Source: Paraescarpia echinospica (taxonomy: Eukaryota; Annelida; Polychaeta; Sabellida; Siboglinidae). From it: 64,000 bases of DNA. This document shows positions 1,398-50,990 of this stretch, in pieces; positions within the stretch are counted from its first letter, which is position 1, and each line of letters opens with the position of its first letter. The stretch lies in assembly GCA_020002185.1 (NCBI GenBank), contig CM034538.1, positions 66,697,424-66,761,423 on the forward strand, written 5' to 3'. Made by a program: the position numbers and the translations under genes. The notes beneath the pieces were generated by a model. That model made no database searches and was not told the origin of the DNA. It was given only the letters and a program-made list of their open reading frames with translations.

Positions 1398-4300
1398 GTG
1401 AGTTACAGGTCGTAGGTTACTTGATGCTCGGTCGAAGGTCAGGTGCACTTCAGTGAAAACACGCCTCATTTTGGTGGTTCAGAACATATTATCTGTGAGA
1501 CACAGTGACGTTATGGTTAGCACATCAGACTCTTTGTCAAGAGAACCCGAGTTTGACTCCTCTTGCTGTAATTTTGAACCTTGGGAAAGTTTGTTCTCCA
1601 CTTTGCTCCAATTCACTCAGCTATATGATTGAGTAGGTGGTTATAGACAGTGGTGGACATTTGTGTATGAGTAGTCTTCATGTAGTAATTGCAACATGGC
1701 TGAATGCTTTTCAGTGAAGTTGAAATGGTGTTTTATTGAAGAGTTCTGCCAAGGAGTGATGTGTGAAGCGCTCTGAGCAGGTGCATAAGATTTTTTTAAA
1801 TCCATGTAAGATCAGTTTACGACTCTACAGCAGTCCTCAGATGTATAGCATTCTTCAAATAATTCATCACATATTTCTATTCAGTATGACCATCAGGCAA
1901 CAAAATATACTCACATAAAAATAATCTGCTTGTTTTTTTATCTACCTAGCATCATGCTGTAAGATTGTAATTCAATTTCTCCTTGTGCGATGAACTCAAG
2001 AAAATATGTATACGTTATCACAATTTTTCCATTTCAAACAGTTCATGTTAAAATTTTATACGACATGTTAAAAGGGATACATCATATTTCTCACCAAACC
2101 TTTGTTGTATACCCATGGTACACGAAACCTGTATAATGTAGCTAGTCTGTCGATGGCCTTTACGTGTGTTGGAGTCGAGGTACATTGAAGAATATGAGAT
2201 GTTATATTCACGTTTACTGTGGGAGGTACGATAGATCTATGATAAATCTCTACCTGCTGGTGCAAAATAGAAGTGCTTTTATGAATAGATTTCATCATAT
2301 AAAACTGTCATTGTTTCTGAAGATTGAATCACATAGAACTCGCCATTTCAAAATTATTATTTATGTTTTGTTACAAAATAGTTGAGTTAGTCATTTGTAT
2401 AATATTACTGCCATTCAGAATGGTTGTCAGTATAAGCAGCTTAGATTAATGATAACCCTGTGTCCAGAAAATCTCTGTCCATTACCCTGTTATGATTGGG
2501 GCCGAATATCTTCAGGTCCTTCTTTGTAACTGCCATGTTATGATCATGGTGATTTGCTAACTAAATAATAGTTACCAGGTAGTATTTATTCCTGTTAACC
2601 AAATGAATGAATGAAAAGTATTCATTTGACCAATATAATTATGGATACAAAATATAAGAAATATAAATTCTCACAAGACTTACAACAATAAAATGTCACT
2701 GTCACAAAGAACCACCCCCGGAAAGTTAATATTCCAATATAGTAACATTGCATTAACAAACAAACTAACTAGCTAATACTACCACTGCAACATGAGTACG
2801 TTGTTAGAGAGAGTTGACTGAGACGAGGCAGCCGCTGTGTGGTGAGTTGTTAGAGAGAGCTGACTGAGTCGAGGCAGCCGCCATGTGGTGAGTTGTTAGA
2901 GAGAGCTGACTGAGACGAGGCAGCCGCCGTGTGTTGAGTTGTTAGACAGAGCTGACTGAGACGAGGCAGCCGCCGTGTGTTGAGTTGTTAGAGAGAGCTG
3001 ACTGAGACGAGGCAGCCGCCGTGTGTTGAGTTGTTAGAGAGAGCTGACTGAGACGAGGCAGCCGCCGTGTGTTGAGTTGTTAGAGAGAGCTGACTGAGAC
3101 GAGGCAGCCGCCGTGTGTTGAGTTGTTAGAGAGAGCTGACTGAGACGAGGCAGCCGCCGTGTGTTGAGTTGTTAGAGAGAGCTGACTGAGACGAGGCAGC
3201 CGGCGTGTGTTGAGTTGTTAGAGAGAGCTGACTGAGACGAGGCAGCCGCCGTGTGTTGAGTTGTTAGAGAGAGCTGACTGAGACGAGGCAGCCGCCGTGT
3301 GTTGAGTTGAGTTGTTAGAGAGAGCTGACTGAGACGAGGCAGCCGCCGTGTGTTGAGTTGTTAGAGAGAGCTGACTGAGACGAGGCAGCCGCCGTGTGTT
3401 GAGTTGTTAGAGAGAGCTGACTGAGACGAGGCAGCCGCCGTGTGTTGAGTTGAGTTGTTAGAGAGAGCTGACTGAGACGAGGCAGCCGCCGTGTGTTGAG
3501 TTGTTAGAGAGAGCTGACTGAGACGAGGCAGCCGCCGTGTGTTGAGTTGTTAGAGAGAGCTGACTGAGACGAGGCAGCCGCCGTGTGTTGAGTTGTTAGA
3601 GAGAGCTGACTGAGACGAGGCAGCCGCCGTGTGTTGAGTTGTTAGAGAGAGCTGACTGAGACGAGGCAGCCGCTGTGTGTTGAGTTGTTAGAGAGAGCTG
3701 ACTGAGACGAGGCAGCCGCCGTGTGTTGAGTTGAGTTGTTAGAGAGAGCTGACTGAGACGAGGCAGCCGCCGTGTGTTGAGTTGTTAGAGAGAGCTGACT
3801 GAGACGAGGCAGCCGCCGTGTGTTGAGTTGTTAGAGAGAGCTGACTGAGACGAGGCAGCCGCCGTGTGTTGAGTTGTTAGAGAGAGCTGACTGAGACGAG
3901 GCAGCCGCCGTGTGTTGAGTTGTTAGAGAGAGCTGACTGAGACGAGGCAGCCGCCGTGTGTTGAGTTGTTAGAGAGAGCTGACTGAGACGAGGCAGCCGC
4001 CGTGTGTTGAGTTGTTAGAGAGAGCTGACTGAGACGAGGCAGCCGCCGTGTGTTGAGTTGTTAGAGAGAGCTGACTGAGACGAGGCAGCCAGCGTGTGTT
4101 GAGTTGTTAGAGAGAGCTGACTGAGACGAGGCAGCCGCCGTGTGTTGAGTTGTTAGAGAGAGCTGACTGAGACGAGGCAGCCGCCGTGTGTTGAGTTGAG
4201 TTGTTAGAGAGAGCTGACTGAGACGAGGCAGCCGCTGTGTGTTGAGTTGTTAGAGAGAGCTGACTGAGACGAGGCAGCCGCCGTGTGTTGAGTTGTTAGA

Positions 4301-7300
4301 GAGAGCTGACTGAGACGAGGCAGCCGCCGTGTGTTGAGTTGTTAGAGAGAGCTGACTGAGACGAGGCAGCCGCCGTGTGTTGAGTTGTTAGAGAGAGCTG
4401 ACTGAGACGAGGCAGCCGCCGTGTGTTGAGTTGTTAGAGAGAGCTGACTGAGACGAGGCAGCCGCCGTGTGTTGAGTTGTTAGAGAGAGCTGACTGAGAC
4501 GAGGCAGCCGCCGTGTGTTGAGTTGTTAGAGAGAGCTGACTGAGACGAGGCAGCCGCCGTGTGTTGAGTTGTTAGAGAGAGCTGACTGAGACGAGGCAGC
4601 CGCCGTGTGTTGAGTTGTTAGAGAGAGCTGACTGAGACGAGGCAGCCGCCGTGTGTTGAGTTGTTAGAGAGAGCTGACTGAGACGAGGCAGCCGCCGTGT
4701 GTTGAGTTGTTAGAGAGAGCTGTCTGAGACGAGGCAGCCGCTGTGTATTGAGTTGTTAGAGAGAGCTGACTGAGACGAGGCAGCCGCTGTGTGTTGAGTT
4801 GTTAGAGAGAGCTGACTGAGACGAGGCAGCCGCTGTGTGTTGAGTTGTGCAGCAGGTGGTCGTGTGTTTCAGGAGCGGATATCAATAACGATGGCGCGTA
4901 CAACGCGTGAGCGAATCTCACAGAAAGTGCGACAGAAACAACTTGAAGAGGAGGAGAAGAAACGACTGGAGGAACTACAGCTGCAACAACAACAACAGCT
5001 GCAGCAACAGCAGCTGCAACAACAACAACAGCAGCAACAACAGCAGCGACTGCAGCAGCAGCAGGCAGAAGAGAAGAAGCGGCACGAGATGCGAGAGAAA
5101 GAACGACACAAAGCGAGGAAACTAGGGGGCGCTGCGGGGGCTGGCGATGTAACGTCTACGGAAGGTAAGGCCTCTGGGATATTTCCACAGCTCTATCATC
5201 AAAATATTAACTCGCAAATTGGAAATGGAAAATTGATGTGATAATCTGTTGTATTTAATTAGATTGTTAATTCATTGAAATGTAGATATTCAAATCATGT
5301 AATGATCCAGGTCCTGTCTAATAAGACAGTGCAAGTTTGAGGTATGTCTTACATGATACCCAGAAGTGGGTTTTTATTTATAATGTTCTGTGACAAGTGT
5401 TGATATTTTCAAAAAGAATATCTTGTTGCGTCTGTTCTGCTGTGATATATGGTGCTGTCAGAAATGTCTTTGTGTTGTACAGATCTCTCTCTTAGATCAA
5501 GGTTATTACATTTCGCTACAAGTACACCTATGTAATTACATGGTAATACAGATTCCAAGAGAATGTGTGTCAGGTTTTGCTCTCTTACTGCGGCGTGAAC
5601 ATGGCAGTCCCAGGATGTGACCTTGTCTTATAATGCCTGGGGGGGCGTCTAATTGTTGCTGGATTAAACCGCATTATCATCAGTGGCGTGACGACGCGCA
5701 TGAGTGCCGTCTAATGTTCACACATGTGCTGGCTTGCATGATCACTGGACCGTGACACTTGCAGCTCTCAGCATTGCTGGCAGCTCACAGGGAGCCCCGC
5801 CAATGGCTGCTGGACGCACACACAATCGGCCGACAGGGAAACCACCGACGACGATGAAAAAGAAGAAGTCGTGAGTGGCTGACCTGTTGTTTTTATATAT
5901 AAAGTAATGTAACATTGGTGGCCAAGCAGTCAGATCACTGCGGTCATGCTGACGACAACTAGAGGTGGACGTCTGTTTGTTCACTTGCTGAATGAAGCTA
6001 TGTATGTATTTCCTCTATAGACATGCTATAATAATTAGGTTAGCTACTGTTGAATATGGTGTCTTCGTTATGATTCTTTTAAATTACCATTATGCATGTG
6101 TTGATCTACAAAATAGTAAAGATTTGTGCTTCTCTTTTTGTCAGTCATGGCTGTCTTAGAATTAACAATGACCGCCTGTGGAAAGATCTACGTCATAGTA
6201 AATATGCTGTCTTAGAATTAACAATGACCGCCTGTGGAAAAATCTACATCATAGTAAATATGCTGTCTTAGAATTAACAATGACCGCCTGTGGAAAGATC
6301 TACGTCATAGTAAATATGCTGTCTTAGAATTAGCAATGACTGCCTGTGGAAAGATCTACGTCATAGCAAACAAGCTATTGATTTTGTGGTTCAGTTTAAC
6401 CCTTTCAAACCATGTGGTCGTAAACAAAAATTAGTCCCAGGAACAGCTTTTTCAAGGATCCAATATTCTATTCCACATGGGAGATCACCTGATAACAGCA
6501 TACATGTGAGATTACCTGATAACAGCGTAGCAGTAACAGATAGAAAAGTACACATTTCTAAAGTAAATTAGCTATCCAACCAGCCGCAATTTATTTATGA
6601 AAACACAGACAGTTGTATCAAACTTATTGTGGAGATCAACTGTAAAATGTACAAAAATGTCTCAAACGAGGCAATAAAACTTGCCACAAGCACCAGTCCA
6701 ACTGGCAATTGACAGTTCTCGGTAACTTTGAAAGACATTGTTGACTGGTAACATTGGCAGACAATGAAATAGTCCATTTAGAAGTCTGGCCTAATGTTTA
6801 CGTATCAAGTCTCATTGATTATTAAATATGCTATGTATTTGGGTCTGCAGGGCTTAAGGTAGCGGGGGCTGGTATCGTGTCAGTTGATTTCTTTACTTTT
6901 TTCCTCATAGAACATTAGTAGGTGTCAGTATGAACATTTGTACTAAAAAAAAACCATGGCACTAGTGCCATATGTCACCAATCAGTCCTTTAAAAACTAG
7001 TATTTTTAGTATGTTTGTGGAGATTCTTGGAAACTGACGATGTTTCCATAGTGATGATCACATGTTCATCATGGCCAGTTCAAACATTACGCAAAGATGA
7101 ATTCATTCACCTTGAACGCAGATCATATAGTCTGGTTATTCTATATGATGTATTATAATTACATAAATGCATTACACTGTTAAATCACCAAATACTGGCG
7201 GTAGTTTTGTTTATTCTGTGACAAGGCCGACTTTCGCTGCCAGTTGCAGTGACACTGACTGACCCCAGCCGGTGTCAATCAGTCAATCTTGTCTACTACA

Positions 7301-10300
7301 GCAAGTTCAACACTGGCCCTTCGTAACACAATGTCATTAGACATTTGTCATTACAAATACAGATTGTAGGGCCAATTTGGCGCGAAAACCTTTGGGGGAA
7401 TCTCAATAATAGAAGTGTCTGTCAAATTGTGTTGAAATAAGCCACCTGCCAGTGAAAAAGTCACATTTCTAAGCAAAAAAATACACATCTGGTGACATTT
7501 GTATTATCAGTAACAACTACAAAGTATTACTTAATGTAACTTTTCATAAAAACTACAACATTTTTATTATGCTGTGATAGACTTGGTCAATTAATCTATT
7601 TAATAAAAGCATGTGAAATTCAATGAATTTCTGTTTACCAATTACTCTTATGTCAACTGGTTGCTACTTTTATACATTAAGTAAATACGTACTAAGTTTG
7701 CCATGCGTAGGCAGAACTGACAATGAATCGATAAGCTGTTAAGAAAACACACTTTATCGGCAGTGCTTTATTCATCTGCCGATTATCCCACCATTCTAAG
7801 AGCATAATCCCTATTCACCTGTGACTGTCTGTACATAAAAGTGCACCTGCCATTTAATAATAAAAATAACTTTATCCGCCATCAAATCCGGGCCAAAGGT
7901 GCCACTTACGAGGGTAAACATAGCACAGTCGAACTTCACTTGATGGTCACCTCAGTAAAGCAGCCACCTTGCAATTACGGTAATCAGTTCCATTAATATG
8001 ATCACCTTGCAAGTTAGGGTGACTAGTTATGAGGCACCAGTGAACATAAAAATTATATTTTAAAATTATTTTAAAATCACATTTCTACATTACGTTTTTA
8101 AATTACTTTTTAAAATCACATTTTTTAAACAATATTTTTAATTACAATGTAAAATTACAAATAATGTATAGACATTATAGTACATAAACAATATACATTT
8201 GTGGAGGATTGGTTGTAAATAATAATAACTGGGAATACATTCTCAAGGAAGTAAGTTAAACAGTATTGGATAACGCTGCCATAAGTATAAGGTAACATAT
8301 GCAAAATAAAAGGGAGTTGATGTGATAGATTTAACCCGTCTCCTCTACTTTGACCCTGACAGGCCTTCAGCAGCAGAGAATGACGGGGGCAGTCAGACTG
8401 GACCGGTCTCTAGTAAGTCGTATGAGACTGTCTGTGCAGAGGACCTCAAGCCCTTCAAGGACCCCAACAGGGCACTCATTGATGCCATGCAAGCAATGTC
8501 TCAAGAAATATGGTAATTACTCCACACTTCTGCTAACAAACATTTCATATCAATAGAATATTTTTTTTTATGGTTTGTGGATGTTACACAGACACTGATA
8601 TGGTGGCATTCAGGCAAATATATAGCATTGAAATATCTTATCACAAACATCTTTTATTCACAGATGTATATAGATACTCAGTTGGACTAAATTAGCTAAC
8701 TTTACAATTATTTAAGATTATTTTTGGGTAAAACCCAAATGTCTGTCAGCAAGTGACTAATTATTTTTTGTTCTTCCTATTAATTTTGTGTGACGATGTA
8801 ATTCAACACAATCCATTGACATTAATTTCAGTTGGAACTTAGATGATGATCAGTTATAGGAGAGTGTTTTTAATGGTGGATCAGTAGATTATCTCATAAT
8901 CCCGTGTTTAGACGCACTTGTGCATGTGACATTGTTGTCTCAGGGACATCAAGTGCAACGGCATGAACAGTATCCGACGACTGGCAAAACACCATCCACA
9001 AGTCCTCATTGGCCAACTTCACAGTATTGTAGTTGCCATAATACAGGAGGTATGTCGTTGTACACACAGTATTGTAATCGCCATAATACAGGAGGTATGT
9101 TGTTGTACACACAGTATTGTAATCGCCATAATACAGGAGGTATGTCGTTGTACACACAGTATTGTAGTCGCCATAATACAGGAGGTATGTTGTTGTACAC
9201 ACAGTATTGTAATCGCCATAATACAGGAGGTATGTCGTTGTGCACACAGTATTGTAGTCGCCATAATACAGGAGGTATGTTGTTGTACACACAGTATTGT
9301 AATCGCCATAATACAGGAGGTATGTTGTTGTACACACAGTATTGTAATCGCCATAATACAGGAGGTATGTCGTTGTACACACAGTATTGTAGTCGCCATA
9401 ATACAGGAGGTATGTTGTTGTACACACAGTATTGTAATCGCCATAATACAGGAGGTATGTTGTTGTACACACAGTATTGTAGTCGCCATAATACAGGAGG
9501 TATGTCGTTGTACACACAGTATTGTAGTCGCCATAATACAGGAGGTATGTTGTTGTACACACAGTATTGTAATCGCCATAATACAGGAGGTATGTTGTTG
9601 TACACACAGTATTGTAGTCGCCATAATACAGGAGGTATGTCGTTGTACACACAGTATTGTAGTCGCCATAATACAGGAGGTATGTTGTTGTACACACAGT
9701 ATTGTAATCGCCATAATACAGGAGGTATGTCGTTGTACACACAGTATTGTAGTCGCCATAATACAGGAGGTATGTCGTTGTGCACACAGTATTGTAATTG
9801 CCATAATACAGGAGGTATGTCGTTGTGCACACAGTATTCTTGTATCTTGTACAGCACGTGCATTAATCTAACAAGTTTGCTGGATAATTTATCACTCGCT
9901 TAGTTACAGCCGTGCACTTTTAATGAACGTGACATTTTTTAAAGAAACTTGTTTTAATCTAATATCTATTCATGTAATTGAATATTTTGTTAAACTATAT
10001 ATTGTAATGATTTTTATGTTTTCACGTATGTCTTACAATATCTATACATACCTATAAACAGTCCCACATGTATGGCATTTCATAATTAAAAATAATAATA
10101 ATATTAGTATTATTTTCTTGAGTATTATTGTGCAGTGCAAAATCACGTGATTTTAGCCGCCACATAATAATCGCATGCAGTGCTATGACCTGCTGCCCTT
10201 AAGCATACGATTGGGTATGTACCAAGATGTATATTTGCAGATAAAAAATCTTCGGTCACAAGTGTCACGCCAAGCGATCGGGTGTCTCAGTGAAATGTAC

Positions 10301-13300
10301 ACACAACTGAAACGCAACATGGACCCGGTAAGTCACCCCCCAGAGCTCGTGTTAGAATGGTTGAACTATTGACCTTTCGTGTACTTTCACGCTGATCTAT
10401 CGTTGCTTTTTTTCAGAACGTTAAAAGAATGAATGAACTTATGAATATTATTCCAGTGTTTTGTTGCTTAAGTAGCTATATCGACATTTGATTTTATTTC
10501 AGCCTGCTGCTGGGTCCTGTGATTATATGTAGGTGATTGTAAAGAATTTGCTGCACTACCTTTTACCATTAATTACCAACATTTTGACATGTGATATAGT
10601 TTTTGTTGCAAAATAAACCTATTTTACTTCCTGTTGCTGTAAGATGATTGTGGCCAAAGGTAAACTGATGGTGTAAGTGTCATTCTGTGGTAAGGTGGGA
10701 TTCTACAATGTACACACTTTTGAGCAATACGTAGATGTGTCTTTGAAACATCATAACTTTGCCAATAATTTCCACAAAAATGTATTAAAAAAAACCTGCT
10801 ACAAAAGGGTGTGTGATGCTGTATGTAACCCTCTGTCTGTGGGACCAGGAGCTGGACCAGACGACAAAGACGCTGCTGGCCAAATGTGTCGAGAGCAATG
10901 CATTTATCCGGGAGGACATTGACAAGGCACTGAGTGCGATGATCGAACACACGTCACTACAGAGGGTGCTACCTGCCCTCCTGGCTGGAGGGGTTACGTG
11001 AGTCTCTGTTTACATTGCTACACCTGGGACAGTGGGTCAATAGCAGTAGTTTCCTGCAGCTTATGACACATGCAATAGACACAATAATGCATTATTATAT
11101 GTAGATTAATAATTTTTCACTGAACACATCATTAGTTTGAACATTGGTTCAATCATTTCATTTTAGGCAGGTCTATACGTCTAGTATTTTGCCGATTGTT
11201 TCGCACTGGACATGGTGATACGTTGTGATGATCGCAGAGAGCTGTTTGTGAAGGGATCAGGCTAGTTGATGTACGGCTGCACTGCCCTGGCTGTTACTCC
11301 TCTCTGCTTCTCCCTATTAGCAGCCTTCTCCTTTCAGTTGTCATCCACCTCTTCCTTTCTCATAACAACACATCAGTGAATAAAGAAAACTCCATTAATT
11401 ACAAGTCCATCCTAACAGATAGCATGGTACCACATGGGGCCTGTAGTTTACCGAGTGTGTTGTTTTGTCTGCAGACATCGTAGCGTGGCGGTGCGTAAGA
11501 CGTGCGTGCAGTTTGTGTGTCGGGTCGTGGAGAACATGGGTCCAGGACGTGTCCTCAGTGGGGTGAAGGACACCACGGACAAGCTGCTACCGGCCGTCGC
11601 AGAGTTCCTGCAGGACTCTTCCTTAGAAACTAGGTAAGTGACGTTGACAAGGGAAACACAGGAAGTGGTGGCATAGTGGGTAAAACACCCAATGGTTGAT
11701 CGAGAGAATGGCGGATCAGTTGTGCTTTGTTTTGAAGGTTGTGTAGTTTGGTTCACTCCATCTTGCCTGTGCCTGGGAAGAGACACTGAAACCCAAAATT
11801 CCATTCTACCTAGTGTATATGGCAGAGGAAATAAAATATATAGTGCTAGGAAACGGAAAATATATGTTGTGGACTCATCAACTCTACATGACTCAGAAAT
11901 AAGCCATCAGTCCTTATAATTGGTTCTCAGACCTGTTAGAAGTGAAAAAAACATTTACTTCACTTATTTTTTGTGTGTGCCCCAAATTAACTGCGTTTTA
12001 GAGATTTAGTACTAGATTGTTGGTTTTCTGGAAAAAAAAATGCAAATTCCAAAAATTCTAGTACATTTTAAAATATTAAATCAGTCACTGTTGACATAAC
12101 GGTTCCCAATAAGGCAAATAAAATTCTGAAACATTCATCAATGTGGATAACCTCAAACCCTTCCACGACTCCAACAGAACTATTCTAGGCAACGAACCCT
12201 CACAGGCATTGAACCCATGCAGGCAATGAACCCTCATAGGCGATGAACTCACACAGACAATAAACCCTCACATGCAATGAACCCCCACAGGCAATGAACC
12301 CACACAGGCAATGAACCCTCACACGCAATGAACCCACACAGGCAATGAACCCACACAGGCAATGAACCCACACAGGCAATGAACCCTCACAGGCAATGAA
12401 ACCACACAGGCAATGAACTCTCACAGGCAATGAACCCACACAGGCAATGAACCCTCACAGGCAATATGTCTAGAAATTTTGTAGTAGGTGCATAGTTCTG
12501 CTGACAGAATACATGCGCAGTTTATTCAATTCTCTACTCAACCGTGTTGTGTAGACTGCAGTTATGGACAAATATTGTTAATCTAAGGTTATGAATTGTG
12601 ATAAATATTGCTGCTTTTAGAATGTGAATCTGGAGGACTGCTGTTGCTCTTAGACTGAATGGGGTAGGATCGTTGTTCCTCTTAGACTGTGATTGACGAG
12701 GACTGTTGTTGCTCTTAGACTTAATGAGGAGGACTGTTGTTGCTCTTAGACTGAATGACGAGGACTGTTGTTGCTCTTAGACTGAATGACGAGGACTGTT
12801 GTTGCTCTTAGACTGAATGAGGAAGACTTGTTGCTCTTAGATTGTGATTGAGGAGGACTGTTGTTGCTCTTAGATTGAATGAGGAGCACTGTTGTTGCTC
12901 TTAGACTGAACGAGGAGGACTGTTGTTGCTGTTAGACTGAATGAGGACTGTTGTTGCTCTTAGACTGTGATTGAGGAGGACTGTTGTTGCTCTTAGACTG
13001 GATGAGGACTGTTTTTGCTGTTAGACTGAATGAGGAGGACTGTTGTTGCTATTATACTGTGATTGAGGAGGACTGTTGTTGCTCTTAGACTGTGATTGAG
13101 GAGGACTGTTGTTGCTCTTAGATTGAATGAGGAGCACTGTTGTTGCTCTTAGACTGAATGAGGAGGACTGTTGTTGCTGTTAGACTGGATGAGGACTGTT
13201 GTTGCTGTTAGACTGTGATTGAGGAGGACTGTTGTTGCTGTTAGACTGAATGAGGAGGACTGTTGTTGCTATTATACTGTGATTGAGGAGGACTGTTGTT

Positions 13301-15746
13301 GCTCTTAGACTGAATGAGGACTGTTGTTGCTCTTAGAATGTGATTGAGGAGAACTGTTGTTGCTCTTAGACTGAATGAGGAATGTTGTTGCTGTTAGACT
13401 GAATGATGAGGACTGTTGTTGCTCTTAGACTGTGAATGAGGAGGACTGTTGTTGCTCTTAGACTGAATGAGGACTGCTGTTGCAGTTAGACTGAATGAGG
13501 AGGACTGTTGTTGCTCTTAGACTGAATGGGGTGGACCGTTGTTGCTCTTAGACTGTGAATGATGAGGACCGTTGTTGCTCTTAGACTGTGATTGAGGAGG
13601 ACTGTTGTTGTTCTTTGACTGTGAATGAGGAATGTTGTTGCTCTTAGACTGTGAAAGAGGAGGGCTCTTGTTGCTCTTAGACTGTGAATGAAGACTGTTG
13701 TTTCTCTTAGACTGTGATTGAGGAGGAATGTTGTTGCTCTTAGACTGTGATTGAGGAGGACTGTTGTTGCTCTTAGACTGAACGAGGACTGTTGTTGCTC
13801 TTAGACTGAATGAGGAGAACTGTTGTTGCTCTTAGACTGTGATTGAGGAGGACTGTTGTTGCTCTTAGACAGAATGGGAGGACCGTTGTTGCTGTTAGAC
13901 TGAATGAGGAGGACTGTTGTTGCTCTTAGACTGTGATTGAGGAGGACCGTTGTTGCTCTTAGACTGAACGAATAATGTTGTTGCTCTTAGGCTGTGAAAG
14001 AGGAGGATTGTTGTTGCTCTTAGACTGAATGGGGAGGACCGTTGTTGCTCTTAGACTGTGAATGATGAGGACCGTTGTTGCTCTTAGACTATGATTGAGG
14101 AGGACTGTTGTTGTTCTTTGACTGTGAATGAGGAATGTTGTTGCTCTTAGACTGTGAAAGAGGAGGGCTCTTGTTGCTCTTAGACTGTGAATGAAGACTG
14201 TTGTTGCTCTTAGACTGTGATTGAGGAGGACTGTTGTTGCTCTTAGACTGAACGAGGACTGTTGTTGCTCTTAGACTGATTGAGGAGGACTGTTGTTGCT
14301 CTTAGACAGAATGGGAGGACCGTTGTTGCTGTTAGACTGAATGAGGAGGACTGTTGTTGCTCTTAGACTGTGATTGAGGAGGACCGTTGTTGCTCTTAGA
14401 CTGTGAACGAATAATGTTGTTGCTCTTAGGCTGTGAAAGACGAGGATTGTTGTTGCTCTTAGACTGAATGGGGAGGACCGTTGTTACTCTTAGACTGTGA
14501 ATGAGGAGGACTGTTGTTGCTCTTAAACTGTGAATGATGAGGACCGTTGTTGCTCTTAGACTGTGATTGAGGAGGACTGTTGTTGTTCTTAGACTGTGAA
14601 TGAGGAATGTTGTTGCTCTTAGACTGAAAGAGGAGGACTGTTGTTGCTCTTAGATTGAATGGGGAGGGCCGTTGTTGCTCTTAGACTGTGATTGAGGAGG
14701 ACTGTTGTTGTTCTTAGACTGTGAATGAGGACTGTTGTTGCTCTTAGACTGTGAAAGAGGAGGACTGTTGTTTCTCTTAGACTGAATGAGGACTGTTGTT
14801 GCTCTTAGACTGAATAAGGAGGACCGTTGTTGCTCTTAGACTGTGAATGATGAGGACCGTTGTTGCTCATAGACTGTGATTGAGGATGAATGTTGCTCTT
14901 AGACTGTGAAAGAGGAGGACTGTTGTTGCTCTTATACTGTGAATGAGGAATGTTGTTGCTCTTAGACTGAATGAGGTCTGCTGTTGCTCTTAGTGAATGA
15001 GCAGGAGTTGTTGCTCTTAGACTGTGAATGAGGAATGTTGTAGCTCTTTGACTGAATGAGGTCTGCTGTTGCTCTTAGTGAATGCGCAGGAGTTGTTGCT
15101 CTTAGACTGAATGAGGAGGAATGTTGTAGCTCTTAGACTGAATGAGGACTGTTGTTGCTCTTACACTATGAATGAGGACTGTTGTTGGTGTTGCCAGGTA
15201 TTACGCCCAGAAGATCTTCTTCCTGTTGATGTCGCACGAGGACTTCGACAAGATGATGCAGAAGTACGTGCCGAGTCAGTCACTGCGCAACATCCAGGAC
15301 AAGCTGGACACGCTGAAGAAAAAGGTAGGACAGCACATACACCCTGAGTGATCTGTATGAGTAACCTCGCCAGCAAACTGACAGAGCACTTCTGGATCTT
15401 ATTATCATCCCATGTCCCACTTGGTGTGATATGGTAGGTCGATGACTAGAACACCAGACAGTCATTTGGTGTAGCCTCGTTGAAAACCACCAGTGGGTGC
15501 TTCAGAACTTTCGTTCACCGGATTTTTCCTTTGTCTTTTCGGATGAGACAAAATTATGTAAGTTTCTTCAACCTGTGTCTACATCAGGAGAAGTTAACAG
15601 TCTACATGGAGCAGACGTACAGCCTGTTGTGGACTCACAGAGGGAGTGGGGTCTGTCTCCAACCACTGTGTATGTACATACGCATGTTTGTATGTAGTAT
15701 GTAATGAATGTTTTTATTTGCTGCTAATGGTTTTTAAATATATATA

Positions 15747-15778
<32 letters not shown>

Positions 15779-18700
15779 CCTGACGTATGTAGATATCCAC
15801 ACCTATACATTCCCTGTCAGGTCAGTTGATGATGTGAAGTCATGCGTGACAGAACTAGTGTAATCACTGCATTGAATGCACTCAGTCCAGTACAAGAATG
15901 TCCTATCCTAGCATTTAGCGACTTGATACTGTGTCAGTTGGATCCATTGTAAACACACCCGTCTTGAGGTAATTTAGTAGTGCAGCTATGGTGAGCCAGT
16001 AACCATAACTAGCATTGTGTCATTATCAGTGCTTCCTTTCCTTCACAGTCGTCACAATAAAGTAATAATTAGAGGCAGCAAGATGATTGTTTGGCATGTG
16101 GAAGGTTCTGTGTCATTTCATGCTCCATTAACGTCTGTTATTCACACGTTTGTCTTGTTATCAAGTACTCGCGTGTCTCCTGTGTGGCTCATTTAGACGC
16201 AGTCACACAGACAAAGTGGTTAATTATTTAACCGCCTGATTAATTGGTGTATGTGTTTAATCACATTTATTTAATTTCTTTGCACAGTCGTGAATCTTTT
16301 ATGAAGCAACAAGTTCATGTTTGTGATTACCTTATCCAGAGGCATTTTAGGTAATATTGTCATGAATAGTTTAGTGTATCAAACGTAAAACTTTGCAAAG
16401 TTGAAAGCAATGCCACTTAACCAGGATTTTTATAGATTTATTGGGGTTTCTAATACCCATTCTGCTGTGAAGTAATATTTAATGTTTGAGGCATGATGGC
16501 CAAGTTACCATGTATTGCCCAATTATTTAATAACAATTAGTATAACTTATTGTATGATTGCTTACCTACTGGCACACAGGTTGTAAGTGGGAATTGGGTC
16601 AAGGTCACGTCTACTTAGTTCCCTGTTAACAGAAGAAAGACACCCAACCCACATCAGTGGATCACAGATTCACACATCTAGTCTCAAAACCTAAACCAAT
16701 GAGAAAGACAGAACATTTCAAGAATTAAATCAATGTGTTTCCTTTGGTTCTGGGTGTCAGCACCCACTCCCGTAGAGAAACAGACAGTGGCTAAGTCAGG
16801 GAAGAAACTCTCATAGAAATAATGTAATGGAAGGAGATAGGATCTTTTATTTTTGGTAGTCAATAAATTATGAAATTTGCTAGCAGTGTTGTGAGCATTA
16901 TTGACTCAGTGTACCTATTTACATTGTTATTAAAGTGAGTTGTGGCTGATTCAGTATTGTTACTAGAGGCCATAAAATGTTGTCATGCAACTATCGATTA
17001 TGCATTTTCTTCTCCCAAATTCAGGGTCTCGGTGACCCACCGAGTGAAGTGTCATCAGCTCGCAGCAGGAGGTCGGGTCATGGGTCAAGGTCAGGGTCAT
17101 CCACACGAGGCAATTCTGCATCGAGGTAGGTTTCATTGCATTCATAAACAACAAACTGTATCTCTAATTCACTTGTGCTATATATGTGTTTGAGTTGGTG
17201 ATGATGGGATGTTTGAGTTGATGATGACGGGATGTTTGAGTTGATGACGACGGGATGTTTGAGCTGGTGATGATGGGATGTTTGAGTTGGTGATGACGGG
17301 ATGTTTGAGTTGATGATGACGGGATGTTTTAGTTGATGACGACGGGATGTTTGAGCTGGTGATGATGGGATGTTTGAGTTGGTGACGACGGGATGTTTGA
17401 ATTTATGGTGACGGGATGTTTGAGTTGGTGATGACGGGATGTTTGAGTTGATGATGACGGGATGTTTGAGTTGGTGATGACGGGATGTTTGAGTTGATGA
17501 TGGGATGTTTGAGTTTATGATGACGGGATGTTTGAGTTGGTGATGACGGGATGTTTGAGTTGATAATGACGGGATGCTTGAGTTGGTGATGACGGGATGT
17601 TTGAGTTGGTGATGACGGGATGTTTGAATTTATGGTGACGGGATGTTTGAGTTGGTGATGACGGGATGTTTGAGTTGATGATGACGGGATGTTTGAGTTG
17701 GTGATGACGGGATGTTTGAGTTGATGATGGGATGTTTGAGTTTATGATGACGGGATGTTTGAGTTGGTGATGACGGGATGTTTGAGTTGATAATGACGGG
17801 ATGCTTGAGTTGGTGATGACGGGATGTTTGAGTTGGTGATGACGGGATGTTTGAATTTATGGTGACGGGATGTTTGAGTTGGTGATGACGGGATGTTTGA
17901 GTTTATGATGACGGGATGTTTGAGTTGGTGATGACGGGATGTTTGAGTTGATGATGACGGGATGTTTGAATTGATGGTGACGGGATGTTTGAGGAACGCT
18001 TTTACGTGGTAACCATTCTTTTTATCAGCGCGAGTGAGAATGGCCCAACACCTTCTAGTGGCACAAAACGGCGGTCAGCGATACGAACAGACGAAGTGAC
18101 AATGAACGAGATAACGTCAATGACAGCGCTGATGGCTGCCAACGACTGGCGAGATCGACAGAAGGGACTGGCTCAGTTCCAGGAGATGACGGAAAGCATC
18201 CCGACCATTTTGGGAAACCACATAGTTAAGGTACCTATGTTATCCTTATAGGGAGAGGGGCATGGCACGGGTCTCAACCTCCCAATCCCAACTTGTTTAG
18301 GGGCTAAAATCCAACAATTTTTTTTAGAGTCCACTTCCCTCTCACAGAACATCTGCATTTCTTAGAGTATTAGAGTATTTTGATTTAATTTGCAAATCTG
18401 CTAAGTTAAGGCGCTAATTCATAATGTTTGAAAATGTAAGCAAAATGATAGTTATCGTGATTTTTTTACATAGCAGATTCATAAAATGCATATTTTGGCC
18501 ACAAAATGTATCAATATTCCATTTTCTTGTAGTTAAGCATATAGTCGAGATGGTGTTCGATTGAACAGGTCTGCCAGCTCTTTGAACAATGCAGAGGACT
18601 GCATTCTACACTATATAAGAACTTACCTTTACCTTTTTAGTTGTTTTTAAGATGTAGCTATTTCATAGTAATTGTTTTATTTCTAGGTATCAATTTAAAA

Positions 18701-21700
18701 TAACGTTTTGTTATAAAATATCAGTGCACATAATTTTAGCAAACATATTTGTATTTTTTATTATTTTTGGTTGACAAAGAAAACAATTACTGTTGTTATT
18801 ATTGTCATTAATCATGGCAAACTAGTTGTTTGTGAAAGCAAAATAGAATGGTAAGATCCAACAATGAAAATCTACAATATAAACAACTAAAACTGTCATT
18901 CACCAAAACAAACACTCTGCACTCTGCCTTGTTGTTTTACGTCTTTTGTCGATCTGCAGCATGACTGGTAGCCTAGCTGAGGTACATTTTCGCTGATTCC
19001 CTCCACAGTGCTACTCCATATTTATGGTTGTCGTCATTGTTCTTTTCCTCCCCATGTCCATATCAAGACTTATTTTAGCTGCTTTGCCACCGTCTTTTAT
19101 ATCATACGACCAGTTCATCTCCTTATGCTGTGTAGGTGATTTGTGTTACTTTGTACACTCTGTGTGACAGAGAGCTGACAACTGATGGAAATGTTTGTAT
19201 CATACAACTAGTTCATCTCCTTATGCTGTGTAGGTGATTTGTGTTACTTTGTACTCTCTGGGTGACAGAGAGAGCTTACAACTGATGGAAATGTTTGTAT
19301 CATACAACTAGTTCATCTCCTTATGCTGTGTAGGTGATTTGTGTTACTTTGTACTCTCTGGGTGACAGAGAGAGCTTACAACTGATGGAAGTGTTTGTTT
19401 CATACAACTAGTTCATCTCCTTATGCTGTGTAGGTGATTTGTGTTACTTTGTACACTCTGTGTGACAGAGAGAGCTTACAACTGATGGAAATGTTTGTAT
19501 CATACAACTAGTTCATCTCCTTATGCTGTGTAGGTGATTTGTGTTACTTTGTACTCTCTGGGTGACAGAGAGAGCTTACAACTGATGGAAATGTTTGTAT
19601 CATACAACTAGTTCATCTCCTTATGCTGTGTAGGTGATTTGTGTTACTTTGTACTCTCTGGGTGACAGAGAGAGCTTACAACTGATGGAAGTGTTTGTTT
19701 CATACAACTAGTTCATCTCCTTATGCTGTGTAGGTGATTTGTGTTACTTTGTACACTCTGGGTGACAGAGAGCTGACAACTGATGGAAGTGTTTGTATCA
19801 TACAACTAGTTCATCTCCTTATGCTGTGTAGGTGATTTGTGTTACTTTGTACACTCTGGGTGACAGAGAGCTTACAACTGATGGAAGTGTTTGTATCATA
19901 CAACTAGTTCATCTCCTTATGCTGTGTAGGTGATTTGTGTTACTTTGTACACTATGGGTGACAGAGAGCTGACAACTGATGGAAGTGTTTGTTTCATACA
20001 ACTAGTTCATCTCCTTATGCTGTGTAGGTGATTTGTGTTACTTTGTACACTCTGTGTGACAGAGAGCTGACAAAAGATGGAAGTGTTTGTTTCATACGAC
20101 CAGTTCATCTCCTTATGCTGTGTAGGTGATTTGTGTTACTTTGTACACTCTGGGTGACAGAGAGCTGACAACTGATGGAAGTGTTTGTTTCATACAACTA
20201 GTTCATCTCCTTATGCTGTGTAGGTGATTTGTGTTACTTTGTACTCTCTGGGTGACAGAGAGCTGACAACTGATGGAAGTGTTTGTTTCATACAACTAGT
20301 TCATCTCCTTATGCTGTGTAGGTGATTTGTGTTACTTTGTACACTCTGGGTGACAGAGAGCTGACAACTGATGGAAGTGTTTGTTTCATACAACTAGTTC
20401 ATCTCCTTATGCTGTGTAGGTGATTTGTGTTACTTTGTACACTCTGTGTGACAGAGAGCTGACAACTGATGGAAGTGTTTGTTTCATACAACCAGTTCAT
20501 CTCCTTATGCTGTGTAGGTGATTTGTGTTACTTTGTACACTCTGTGTGACAGAGAGCTTACAACTGATGGAAGTGTTTGTTTCATACAACTAGTTCATCT
20601 CCTTATGCTGTGTAGGTGATTTGTGTTACTTTGTACACTCTGGGTGACAGAGAGCTGACAACTGATGGAAGTGTTTGTTTCATACAACTAGTTCATCTCC
20701 TTATGCTGTGTAGGTGATTTGTGTTACTTTGTACTCTCTGGGTGACAGAGAGCTGACAACTGATGGAAGTGTTTGTTTCATACAACTAGTTCATCTCCTT
20801 ATGCTGTGTAGGTGATTTGTGTTACTTTGTACACTCTGGGTGACAGAGAGCTGACAACTGATGGAAGTGTTTGTTTCATACAACTAGTTCATCTCCTTAT
20901 GCTGTGTAGGTGATTTGTGTTACTTTGTACACTCTGGGTGACAGAGAGCTGACAACTGATGGAAGTGTTTGTTTCATACAACTAGTTCATCTCCTTATGC
21001 TGTGTAGGTGATTTGTGTTACTGGAAGTGTTTGTTTCATACAACTAGTTCATCTCCTTATGCTGTGTAGGTGATTTGTGTTACTTTGTACACTCTGTGTG
21101 ACAGAGAGCTGACAAAAGATGGAAGTGTTTGTTTCATACGACCAGTTCATCTCCTTATGCTGTGTAGGTGATTTGTGTTACTTTGTACACTCTGTGTGAC
21201 AGAGAGCTGACAACTGATGGAAGTGTTTGTTTCATACAACTAGTTCATCTCCTTATGCTGTGTAGGTGATTTGTGTTACTTTGTACTCTCTGTGTGACAG
21301 AGAGAGCTTACAACTGATGGAAGTGTTTGTTTCATACAACTAGTTCATCTCCTTATGCTGTGTAGGTGATTTGTGTTACTTTGTACACTCTGGGTGACAG
21401 AGAGAGTTAACAACTGATGGAAGTGTTTGTTTCATACAACTAGTTCATCTCCTTATGCTGTGTAGGTGATTTGTGTTACTTTGTACACTCTGTGTGACAG
21501 AGAGAGCTTACAACTGATGGAAGTGTTTGTTTCCTTGCAGATCTTTGACAAATTCATCCCCTGCCTAAAGGACTCGAACAGTAAGGTGAACTTGCAGGCT
21601 CTGCATGTGATGTCAGAGGTGACACGACCACTGCGTGAATACATGAACAATGTCATCAACCTCACTGTATCGACTGTCTCCTCCAACCTGTCTTCTAAGA

Positions 21701-24700
21701 ACAAGGACATCCTGCAAGCAGCGACCACCGTATTAGACAGCTTCATTGAGTGTCTAGGTATGTGGTGTTATCATATTGCAGAAGCCACAGTTTGATAGGT
21801 AACAATATTTTTGATGTGTTACTGCAGTCTGATCTTCATTTAAAACTCACTCTCCCTCTGCAGCCCGTCATTAAGCATGCTCGTTTGTGTTCATAATATA
21901 AGTGTTCATAACATAAGTGTATGAAGTGACACATGCATATGATACGTGTGTAGAGTCTTGCCAAAGTCATTGACAGAAGTAACTCTGATTGTTAGATGTG
22001 GTAGCTTGAGAACGTCTCAATAGCCTTGTGATGGACAGTACACAGAGTTCGACCACTTGTTTCTTTACAGTTCAAGTGATGTACAGTACACAGAGCTTGA
22101 CAACTTGTGTCTTTACAATCCAAGTGATGTACAGTACACAGAGCTCGACCACTTGTGTCTTTACAGTTCAAGTGATGTACAGTACACAGAGCTCAACCAC
22201 TTGTGTCTTTACAATCCAAGTGATGTACAGTACACAGAGCTCGACAACTTGTGTCTTTACAATCCAAGTGATGTACAGTACACAGAGCTCGACCACTTGT
22301 GTCTTTACAATCCAAGTGATGTACAGTACACAGAGCTCGACAACTTGTGTCTTTACAATCCAAGTGATGTACAGTACACAGAGCTCGACCACTTGTGTTT
22401 TTACAGTTCAAGTGATGTACAGTACACAGAGCTCGACAACTTGTGTCTTTACAATCCAAGTGATGTACAGTACACATAGCTCGACCACTTGTGTCTTTAC
22501 AGTTCAAGTGATGTACAGTACACATAGTTCGACCACTTGTGTCTTTACAGTTCAAGTGATGTACAGTACATAGAGCTCGACCACTTTTGTCTTTACAGTT
22601 AAAATGATGTACAGTACACAGAGTTCGACCACTTGTGTCTTTACAGTTTAAGTGATGTACAGTACATAGAGCTCGACCACTTGTGTCTTTACAATCCAAG
22701 TGATGTACAGTACACAGAGCTCGACCACTTGTGTCTTTACAGTTCAAGTGATGTACAGTACACAGAGCTCGACCACTTGTGTCTTTACACTTCAAGTGAT
22801 GTACAGTACACAGAGCTCGACAACTTGTGTCTTTACAATCCAAGTGATGTACAGTACACAGAGCTCGACCACTTGTGTCTTTACAGTTCAAGTGATGTAC
22901 AGTACACAGAGTTCGACCACTTGTGTCTTTACAGTTCAAGTGATGTACAGTACACAGAGCTCGACCACTTTTGTCTTTACAGTTAAAATGATGTACAGTA
23001 CACAGAGTTCGACCACTTGTGTCTTTACAGTTCAAGTGATGTACAGTACATAGAGCTTGACCACTTGTGTCTTTACAATCCAAGTGATGTACAGTACACA
23101 TAGCTCGACCACTTGTGTCCTTACAGTTCAAATGATGTACAGTACACAGAGTTCAACCACTTGTGTCTTCACAGTTCAAGTGATGTACAGTACATAGAGC
23201 TCGACCACTTGTGTCTTTACACTTCAAGTGATGTACAGTACACAGAGGTCGACCACTTGTGTCTTTACAGTTCAAGTGATGTACACTACATAGAGCTCGA
23301 CCACTTGTGTCTTTACAGTTCAAGTGATGTACAGTACACAGAGCTCGACCACTTGTGTCTTTACAGTTCAAGTGATGTACAGTATATAGAGCTCGACCAC
23401 TTGTGTCTTTACACTTCAAGTGATGTATAGTACATAGAGCTTGACCACTTGTGTCTTTACACTTCAAGTGATGTACAGTACATAGAGCTCGACCACTTGT
23501 GTATTTACAGTTCAAGTGATGTACAGTACATAGAGCTCGACCACTTGTGTCTTTATTCATACAAATTCAAGTAGACCCAGTGGAAAATAATTTAATCTAT
23601 CAAATGATTTCATCAAAACTAAACAATACATTTTTACAAATGAGCTACTGCTATAGAGGATACTAGACAGGGTATGATGTTTTGCGAGATGATTTTAGAC
23701 GAGACAGAAAACATTTGTTTTTAAATTCTATTGTGGAATTCAGTCTTGAAAATATTAAAATTGAACTGCCTGAAAAAAACATTGGAATTATCTCAGAATA
23801 AAAAAAAAATTGGTGGTTAAATATCGGAGGTAAGTAAATAAGAATGTTATCTTGGATGTGATAGTCACCAGCTTACCGTCTTTGTTACCATGTAATTGAG
23901 TGAACCATGTTGAGCAGATCACGTGACAGTCATGTAATTGCTTGCAGATGGATCACTGCTGTTGCAGCCGTTTGCTAACCAAGTACAGAGTGGAAATCAA
24001 CGGATAAAACCAGACATGATAGACCGTGTTGCATGTAAGTTGCCACTGTGATTCATAAAAAGTTTTACTGGACAGATAAGCCAGCACTGTGGAAGACCTA
24101 ACAACTGTCAATTAAGAGGACCAGCGTTGAACCTCTCTTGTGCATTTTGTTGTTTTGTTAAAACTGTCTACAACTCGTCAAATACCTGCCATATGGCAAG
24201 GCAGTTGGAAGTGTCTTCATTCAAACCCTCCAATGCTACAGAGTAACCCTACTGGACAATACTTGTCACATTTGATATGTACCTAATACAGAGACAAGAG
24301 TTGTAGTAAGAGAAGCAGCTGTATGAATATATGTCTGTGGAGCGTTGTTTTTAATGTATTGCTTTGATGCAATAGCCATTGTCTATTAGCTGTGCAGTTG
24401 TGTTGTGTCCACCTGGACTGTCAGGGGAATCCACTTAGATTGTACATCTTTTCTTTTAGTTACGTTGCCATGTGGCAACTTCTAACAAGACGTTGTATCA
24501 GCAGTAAATGTAAACATTATGTTAACCATTACTATTATTACTACTATGACTGACTTGGGGGGTTCTGTAGCGGGAAGTAATACAACAAACGTGTGCTGTG
24601 TTACTGCTGATGTTGAAGTGGTCACTGTGTTCTTACTGCCATTTAGTGTCTCAGGTTTGTGGTGACCAGTTTCTATGGCAGAACTGAGGCATGACGCTTT

Positions 24701-33899: not shown

Positions 33900-35815
33900 T
33901 TTTAATTATTGGGGTCCTCATCCTACTATTTGTGAGACTCCACTGTGGACATATTTATCAATCTGTTGACATTGTCTGGCAGCATTCGCAAGTCTAGGTT
34001 GAGTACTGGCCAACACTCCTTAGGAGTCGTACGGTCAGGGTTGGGGGCGTATGCTAGTTGTGTATTAAAGCTTGTCTGAATTCCTGTGGTTCTGTAATGT
34101 TGACTACTGCATCTGGTAGGAAATTCCAATCTTTTATTGTTCGGGGAAAATAGGAAAAATTATAATGGTTCTTGCTGGTGTGGCAAAAGCGAGCTGCCCA
34201 TCTTTGGACCATTTCTATTTTGTTGATGAGGACTTGGGTGTGGGGGTCCCACAGGGATGATGAGTATTCTAAGAGTAGTCGGACAAAGGTTGTGTAGGCA
34301 GTTGTTTTAATGTTTTTGGGGCACGAGTAGAGATTGCGTCTGATAAATGCTAGAGTATGGTTTGCCGAGGCTGTAATCTGATGGATGTGTTTGTTCCAGG
34401 TGAGATCTTTGGTGATACATACTCCTAGATAGGGATGACTGTCGGTTTCCTGTAGAGTTGCGTTTCCTAGAGTATAATTTAAATGTTTTACGTTTCTTGC
34501 ATGGGTTAGTCTCGTCACAAAGCATTTTTTTGGGTTAAAGTGCATCTGCCAGTCGTGTTCCCATTTTGCTAACTCATTTACCGGTAGGTCTTTCTGTAGT
34601 TCTTGTGAGTCAGACTGATTATTGATCTCAATACAGGACACAGTCGTCTGCAGAGACGGACTGTGGAGTGGATATTGTCAGGTAGATCATTGATGTATAT
34701 CAAGAAGAGAAGCGGTCCCAATACCGTACCTTGCGGTACACCTGGTATAACATTTGTCCAGGTGGAATGTTCTCCACCAACCACCACTCTCTGTTCACGG
34801 CACTTGAGAAAATTAGAGATCCAGGCATGTGTTTTGTTGTGGATGCCACATTTCTTTAATTTATTTAGGAGCCGGTTATGGGGAACGGTGTCACATGCTT
34901 TTGAGAAGTCCATTATTATCATGTCCACTTGGGATTTATTATTTAGATGTCTGGCATAGCGTCAGGCGAATGTTTGAGTATGGTTCTTGTGGTAGGTTGG
35001 TGTTTTCATTTGTAAAGACCGACTTAAATTGGTTAGTGAGGATTTCGGCTTTAAGTCTGTTGTTTGATTCTACCCTGTTGTCTTTCATTAGGGTTGGTAT
35101 TCCAACTGTATCAACTTTAAGGCTTTTTATGTATGACCAGAATTGTTTTGGTGAATCGGAACAAATGGATGATATATACCCCCTGTGTCTTCTGAGAGCA
35201 TTTCTTGTTTTCACATATATAATTATTATCATGTTTGTGATACATATATATTTTGTGTGGGTTTTGCTTGACGACCCTGGGCTTGCAGCTGTTTATGATT
35301 ATTGGGATGCCGTCGCGATCGCCTATTCCTGGTACTACTGTAGATCTTTCAATAAGGGTGGGGTTAGTTGTAAAGAACAAGTCCAAAGTGTTGTTTAGTC
35401 TGGTGGGTTTGCGTACAAGTCCAGTCATTGGCAATTTCTATTTTTTTTAATGTTATTATTTATTTTATAAATTGTGTTTTGATGGTGACCCAGATAATTT
35501 CACAATTGCTATCGAGGTCTCTTCTGCGTGTTCCTATGAGGTCAGTCTTTAGTGCTATCAAAGAGTTTATATACTAATTACTATATATAGCTCTTTGGTG
35601 CTATTTGGCCTCCTCCTTTTGAGTTGTCAAAGTCTCTGTCTTCTCAAATGATTGAATAATTGGAGGGGAACAGTTCATTGCTGTCAACTGAGCTGTCTAG
35701 GTGTGTTTCAGTGCCTATAATTATGTCAGGGTTGTAATTTTTAATGCACACGGCAAGGTCCGAAACTTTGCTCCTGATACTACACAGAAGTCTAATACCA
35801 TGGTTTATATACCGG
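33900..35815 (-). mobile_element. dead non-LTR retrotransposon (endonuclease plus reverse transcriptase), CR1/Jockey-like
   Basis: Reading leftwards, 35815-35590 encodes the start of an EEP endonuclease (IRSKVSDLAVCIKNYNPDII, then GTETHLD). A further endonuclease piece follows (DLDSNCEIIWVTIK, near 35500). The interior with the GDFN/SDH catalytic motifs is missing, and an AT-rich stretch at 35430-35470 replaces it. From 35434 the frame resumes with LDLFFTTNPTLIERSTVVPG and the linker QFWSYIKSLK. The RT at 34928-34578 has [11 protein letters not shown] and [12 protein letters not shown]. The catalytic ADD near 34655 is followed by frameshifts and a stop. A 195-codon frame (34641-34054) covers the thumb and C-terminal region. 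It is clearly non-functional. Family assignment beyond CR1/Jockey-like is uncertain. Confidence 0.88.
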
Positions 35816-50720: not shown

Positions 50721-50990
50721 GAACCCACCAGGACCACGGAGTACTCCACCAACTGTTTGACTTGTTCTTCACAGATAACAAACGTTATCGGTGAAGAACC
50801 CCAGTGCAGCTGTGATACACAACTACTGACTCTAGTTCATGAACTTCGCTACAGCATCGATAAAGGAATGCAGACAGACCTCACAATACTGTAGAGAGAG
50901 CTGTCAGTCCGAGGATATCCTCGGGGGCCGCTACGGTTGTCGAATTGGTCTGGTCAGGATACTTGAAAACTGGTTGCGCCTCTTTTTTTC
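50690..50990 (+). mobile_element. small non-LTR fragment (endonuclease end plus RT piece)
   Basis: The plus strand encodes RLSQIVEEPTRTTEYSTN followed in another frame by LFFTDNKRY, an endonuclease C-terminal pattern. After an apparent deletion it encodes LVHELRYSIDKGMQTDLTIL, the RT segment just before the catalytic D-F-S-K-A-F-D block. It is a short degenerate remnant. Confidence 0.65.

Follow-up and report, generated by a model that had tools for sequence, protein, structure and literature searches.

Tandem repeats that span exon-intron boundaries have been described in amphioxus under the name of mirages, in Adh3, in the globin genes BflGb6 and BflGb9 and in the troponin C gene, and duplications in PGBD5 have been likened to them (PMC3087553, PMC3902484). 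Reported unit sizes are 10-72 bp for Adh3 and 150-160 bp for the globin genes (PMC3087553, PMC3902484). The AG or GT splice signals are present in many, not all, of the units of the Adh3 and globin mirages; the arrays show length instability, and RT-PCR suggests regular splicing (PMC3087553). The mirages of Adh and troponin C are reported to generate no aberrant mRNAs (PMC3902484). Exon-edge minisatellites have been put forward as one way in which new introns may arise. Repeats at exon edges are also on record from human genes. The minisatellite of IFI6 (6-16, G1P3) has a unit of 12 bp and is said to have been described by Turri in 1995 as carrying multiple splice donors. Two of its downstream repeat units are reported to act as donors, with three mRNA species as the outcome (PMC4526556). 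In genes of human segmental duplications, variable internal tandem repeats at exon-intron boundaries have been reported that may form new introns (PMC2812944). For annelids, a limited literature search found no report of exon-edge minisatellites; a paper on earthworm metallothionein genes describes intron repeats and, in its available part, mentions no edge repeats (PMC12783039).

The array considered here lies at the splice donor of an exon of the cilia gene TOGARAM1 in the annelid Paraescarpia echinospica, within a stretch of 64,000 nucleotides (the window, C8:66697424-66761423) of a genome assembly of 1.08 Gb in 3111 contigs. Its unit combines exonic and intronic bases of one boundary and bears the splice signals in 18 of 18 copies. 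The amphioxus mirages, as reported, likewise span a donor or an acceptor boundary and have AG/GT signals in many units, and their unit sizes bracket the 45 bp found here. What differs is taxon, not anatomy, the present array belonging to a lophotrochozoan (an annelid by the tree described below) and not to a cephalochordate; in addition its unit length is divisible by three and no copy interrupts the exon frame with a stop. IFI6 resembles it in having a donor repeated at an exon end with a period that is a multiple of three (12 bp in IFI6), and differs in being another gene in another animal for which use of downstream donors is reported. The human segmental-duplication repeats are reported from recent paralogues with a mean of 4 units of 30 bp, as compared with 18 copies of 45 bp in TOGARAM1.

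The TOGARAM1 gene and the array at the exon D boundary

The following features of the gene are referred to throughout (a slash marks an exon-intron border).

1198-29115, plus strand: C-terminal part of TOGARAM1, 14 exons
1198-1397, 4873-5164, 5765-5870, 8363-8512, 8944-9049, 10241-10327 and 10849-10997, plus strand: exons of TOGARAM1
11475-11633, 15198-15324, 17025-17125, 18029-18230, 21541-21757, 23948-24034 and 28862 to the stop at 29113-29115, plus strand: remaining exons of TOGARAM1
8944-9049, plus strand: exon D, 106 nt, DIKCNGMNSIRRLAKHHPQVLIGQLHSIVVAIIQE, with AG before and GT after it and TOG homology
10241-10327, plus strand: exon E, acceptor TTTGCAG/ATAAAA

Joined at their AG and GT borders, the 14 exons encode 744 aa in a single open frame closed by a stop codon. 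A protein search with residues 220-744 returned 84 proteins at E <= 0.001, many of them named TOGARAM1 or FAM179B and the weakest rows being of CLASP type; the best match, from Paralvinella, is 56% identical over 99% of the query. A Pfam scan of exons C-G found CLASP_N at 1.9e-14, a PDB sequence search returned CLASP1 and CLASP2 alone, and in a 26-row tree the protein clusters with those of Paralvinella and Capitella with support of 99/97. Judged by this similarity, which concerns the C-terminal half, the gene is an orthologue of TOGARAM1 with a predicted TOG (CLASP_N-like) fold. The preliminary description had placed the array inside TOG3; a TOG domain of TOGARAM1 is supported by CLASP_N and by homology. 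No Rfam RNA was matched in the window at gathering scores.

At the end of exon D, Tandem Repeats Finder (TRF) reports a minisatellite at 9020-9838 on the plus strand with a period of 45 bp, 18.2 copies and 96% matches, so that the repeat first placed at 9021-9835 stands and its exact ends shift. Read in register from 9021, each unit consists of the 29 bases that end exon D (9021-9049) and the first 16 bases of the intron (9050-9065), a composition proposed earlier and borne out by the unit table. Three features of the array matter for what follows.

9050-9051, plus strand: first, presumed authentic splice donor, GAG/GTATGT, from the exon model and with the exon length seen in 62 of 63 homologues
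9095-9816, plus strand: the other 17 donors, all of them exact copies (17 of 17), at 9095 + 45n with n from 0 to 16
9830-9838, plus strand: CACAGTATT, a copy of exon bases 9020-9028 and likely the seed of the first duplication, a role suggested by its sequence

The motif GGAG/GTATGT is identical in 18 of 18 units at 9050, 9095 and onwards to 9815 (9050+45n), and the frame of exon D runs open through the array to 9868, with a stop at 9869-9871. Splicing from any later donor to exon E at 10241 would keep phase: the addition of 1, 2 or 17 units yields 759, 774 or 999 aa as against 744, and translation confirms 15 residues per unit of the type V-C-R-C-T-H-S-I-V-V-A-I-I-Q-E. On all these points the preliminary description was correct. 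Spliced at the last donor, exon D would measure 871 nt. The 9-base CACAGTATT stands at both ends of the array, exon bases 9020-9028 being equal to intron bases 9830-9838. Among 26 splice borders tested in the TOGARAM1 window, the donor of exon D alone recurs as an array.

Four columns of the unit vary, at positions 12, 14, 36 and 42; three fall on codon position 1 and alter the amino acid, and one falls on position 3 and is silent. Because three of the four change the amino acid, the variants look neutral, with no sign of constraint on a protein. When units are typed by positions 12 and 36, the same type returns at lag 3 in 8 of 15 cases and never at lags 1, 4 or 7, a pattern suggesting that later growth may have proceeded in three-unit blocks. 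Selection on the donor motif was considered and rejected, since with 4 variable columns among the 45 the 9-base donor would be spared variation in all 18 copies with P = 0.40. The open frame likewise fails as evidence of coding: five of the six frames of the array are open, the sixth having 36 stops. When the 45-bp unit is shuffled, any given frame stays open in 32% of cases, and one third of periods are multiples of three, so that an array both in frame and open is expected with a chance of about 1/9; by itself this property is not remarkable.

With a U1 match of -6.9 kcal/mol, the first donor is middling among those of the gene, whose other 12 donors range from -5.1 to -11.3, and it is no better than the 17 others of the array. 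RNA structure that would hide the donors was also rejected: the array RNA is less folded than its shuffles (z +5.8; 20 of 20 shuffles fold at least as well), and nothing therefore hides them.

The D/E junction in homologues and structure models

Exons C-G could be aligned with 81 of the 84 homologues. The D/E junction and its flanks are covered by 63 of these 81, among them 8 CLASP or CLASP-like proteins. No residue is inserted at the junction in 62 of the 63. The sole exception, a predicted TOGARAM1-like protein of a lizard (P0050), has 16 unrelated residues exactly at this point, perhaps reflecting a mispredicted donor at the same intron; another homologue (P0068) is without the stretch that follows the junction. 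The Lottia protein was modelled with AlphaFold2 from 36 sequences (mean pLDDT 86.8). There the junction corresponds to E74/V75 and separates the final two residues of helix 64-75, and both the model and the homologue alignment place it directly before a short conserved loop, KNLR; Lottia E74, N77, R79 and S80 are invariant in the 36 rows. We take this loop to be the tubulin-contact T2 loop of TOG3.

The array peptide was covered by none of the 10 matches of a protein search. A search with the isoform carrying one additional unit gave no match; it also missed a known partial homologue of 437 aa (P0048) that falls within its length range, and its silence is therefore weak evidence on transcripts. 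AlphaFold2 folds the translated array into a confident beta-solenoid (mean pLDDT 90.2). We rejected this model, in which the TOG helix of exon D becomes a strand, as confident and unrealistic beta-solenoids have been reported as an AlphaFold2 artefact for perfect repeats (PMC11795689).

Exon-edge arrays at other genes of the same genome

Exon loci elsewhere in the genome were picked from match lists with their sequence unseen: 40 of 76 listed myosin-head exon matches, hand-thinned of tandem paralogues, and 30 of 91 dynein DHC_N2 matches (the first 20 without the C629 rows and 10 of the next 13). Six of these 70 loci hold an array that repeats an exon edge with at least 9 exonic bases, four at a donor and two at an acceptor; this number is a rough one and probably too low, as the HMM matches may stop short of exon ends and the borders were read by eye.

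L061: donor array, ATCATGGAG/GTATGA, 52 bp
L062: donor array, AACATGACACG/GTCAGTGAC, 20 bp
L055: donor array, GGGGGCAT/GTAAGTACC, 25 bp
L068: donor array, GACTCTACTTCCCCAG/GTCAGACT, 24 bp
L052: acceptor array, TTGTGTTACAG/TACCATGTG, 20 bp
L082: acceptor array, 61 bp, with 41 exonic bases

A further locus, L093, is marginal, its 33-bp unit containing the whole acceptor and the array entering the exon by 2 bases only; L030, with a 4-base AT-rich overlap with the match, was excluded from the count. Arrays lying wholly inside an exon match (at least 3 copies, period at least 10, at least 65% matches) were found at 0 of the 70 loci.

The periods of the donor arrays L061, L062, L055 and L068 leave remainders of 1, 2, 1 and 0 on division by three, and in their exon frames a stop follows the first donor after 3, 25, 45 and 7 bp (0.06, 1.25, 1.8 and 0.29 units). 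L062 and L055 each have a single donor ahead of the stop, one unit on, where the frame is shifted (periods 20 and 25). By reason of a stop or a frame shift at the later donors, only the first copy can be productive in all four. TOGARAM1 is thus the sole open array among five donor cases, which is about what chance would give.

Exact copies of the donor make up 17 of 17 downstream sites in TOGARAM1, 9 of about 9 in L061, 4 of about 25 in L062, 10 of about 20 in L055 and 0 of about 13 in L068. If up to 2 mismatches are tolerated and the GT is kept, the last three rise to 19, 15 and 10, so that decay there is only partial. These differences fit neutral arrays of differing age, which is not proof of such a history. 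The acceptor array of L082 has 18.4 copies on contig C629 and at least 27.3 on C13, with 98.9% identity over 1149 bases counted from the exon side; the C13 stretch (L096, L094 and L082) and C629 (L095) are likely one dynein locus, in which case the variation in array length would be allelic. Along the sense strand of L061 (634-1153), the 52-bp unit contains the telomere-like hexamer CCCTAA, and an extra copy of it lengthens some units.

Repeat background and array placement

The modelled gene has 25,681 intron bases, 56% of which are taken up by arrays. The array share is 27% for the window and 15% for 200 kb sampled along C8 (20 pieces, three holding Ns). Along the same contig (L004-L023) the minisatellite share varies from 0 to 66% per 10 kb and peaks in the three stretches nearest the contig start. 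The sequence AGGTRNG occurs in the unit of 3 of 106 array-strands, that of TOGARAM1 included, and a donor with as much U1 pairing in 9 of 106, these being the 53 arrays of at least 5 copies in the window and L002-L023, taken on both strands. A donor inside a repeat unit is not background. Several other minisatellites of the gene adjoin exons.

2800-4848, plus strand: 46-bp minisatellite ending 24 bp before exon B
12608-15178, plus strand: 33-bp minisatellite ending 19 bp before exon H, its consensus unit with TTGTTGCTCTTAG
17187-17993: minisatellite ending 35 bp before an exon
19102-21533, plus strand: 98/100-bp minisatellite ending 7 bp before exon K, hugging the acceptor and not spanning the exon
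L003:3905-4528: minisatellite in the same gene upstream of the window, ending 8 bp before an exon

Four of the gene's 11 arrays lie at most 25 bp from a splice site (null 1.14, P 0.01; P 0.08 if a 30-base exon overhang is allowed), so that placement near splice sites is suggestive only. With the exon D array set aside, 3 of 10 end at most 25 bp before an exon on the acceptor side (null 0.51, P 0.006) and 4 of 10 at most 40 bp before one (null 0.79, P 0.002), both thresholds being post hoc; on the donor side 0 of these 10 lie near an exon. The exon-adjoining minisatellites listed above are all on the acceptor side, and some of their units have acceptor-like motifs. Arrays before dynein or myosin exons end, by eye, about 7 (L072), 16 (L075), 8 (L090) and 27 bp (L048) ahead of them, and at L093 the true acceptor lies within the array.

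The window also holds an open frame of C2H2 zinc-finger type at 52382-53875 on the plus strand, with an 84-bp finger tandem repeat at 52573-53011, and open frames at 34054-34677, 50259-50768 and 62964-63857 on the minus strand that by eye resemble fragments of LINE-type reverse transcriptases.

Origin and use of the array

We consider it likely that the TOGARAM1 array is a donor-type mirage in which splicing takes place at 9050, the remaining 17 copies belong to the intron and the protein is probably unchanged. The match of CACAGTATT between the exon end and the intron 45 bases on would have permitted a first 45-bp duplication by slippage or unequal exchange, and further slips, at times of three-unit blocks as the period-3 pattern of unit types suggests, would have enlarged it. 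The outermost donor at 9050 would bound the normal 106-nt exon, the 17 copies being removed as intron together with their exonic-looking bases, and the array would drift neutrally in a repeat-rich genome. At a splice boundary coding sequence could thus be amplified harmlessly, its additional copies ending up in the intron. In support of this reading, exon-edge arrays recur at 6 of 70 loci of the same genome, the four other donor arrays are productive at the first copy only, the junction is free of insertions in 62 of 63 homologues, the variants look neutral, and splicing is reported to proceed undisturbed at the mirages of amphioxus (PMC3087553, PMC3902484). Against it stand the facts that sole use of 9050 is inferred, that nothing hides the donors (the array RNA folding less than its shuffles) and that the first is no better than the others; moreover, an open array with a multiple-of-three unit and 17 of 17 exact donors also fits a field of donors in use.

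Such a field, with competing donors that lengthen the protein in 15-residue steps inside TOG3 in the manner of IFI6, was among the proposals of the preliminary description. It would account for 18 identical donors all in phase, and IFI6 offers a reported precedent for the use of downstream donors (PMC4526556). We nevertheless hold it unlikely given the 62 of 63 homologues without an insertion (the exception, P0050, being a predicted protein with unrelated residues), the neutral-looking variants, the 0 of 10 search matches that cover the array part and the empty isoform search. The insertion point, furthermore, adjoins the invariant E74, N77, R79 and S80 of the Lottia protein, exon D would grow to 871 nt at the last donor, and the other four donor mirages of the genome cannot use later donors productively, owing to their periods or stops. 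The same homologues, variants, unmatched peptide and sister arrays weigh against length-variable TOG domains as then envisaged. Were all 18 in-frame donors used and copy number to differ between individuals, TOGARAM1 would form a ladder with 0 to 17 extra 15-residue steps, a scenario that we regard as decidedly improbable; if true, it would make a length-variable ciliary microtubule regulator, with the steps just before the tubulin-binding loop of TOG3.

The copies might instead act as back-ups or decoys: by offering many U1 sites close to a donor of middling strength they would make the definition of exon D more likely, the cut itself being made at the first donor. The 18 equal U1 sites and an array RNA less structured than its shuffles would suit this role, which we find very doubtful, seeing that many of the extra donors are altered in three of the four other donor mirages and that the variant-free donor of TOGARAM1 is non-significant (P 0.40). 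Expansion or collapse of the repeat during assembly, for which one could invoke the single locus match reported in the assembly and the absence of a second haplotype, is scarcely credible for an array of just 819 bp whose units carry distinct variants in irregular order and which has similar counterparts at other genes. A donor-type mirage spliced at 9050 is thus the reading that we retain.

Implications

If the C13 and C629 copies of the dynein array are alleles, mirage arrays are length-variable in this genome. Given 6 of 70 sampled exon loci in a lophotrochozoan, besides TOGARAM1, the phenomenon is probably wider than the located literature suggests. As natural experiments, arrays of equal donors bear on how the spliceosome chooses among identical sites, and open in-frame arrays such as that of TOGARAM1 would be rare instances in which a slip in donor choice still yields protein.
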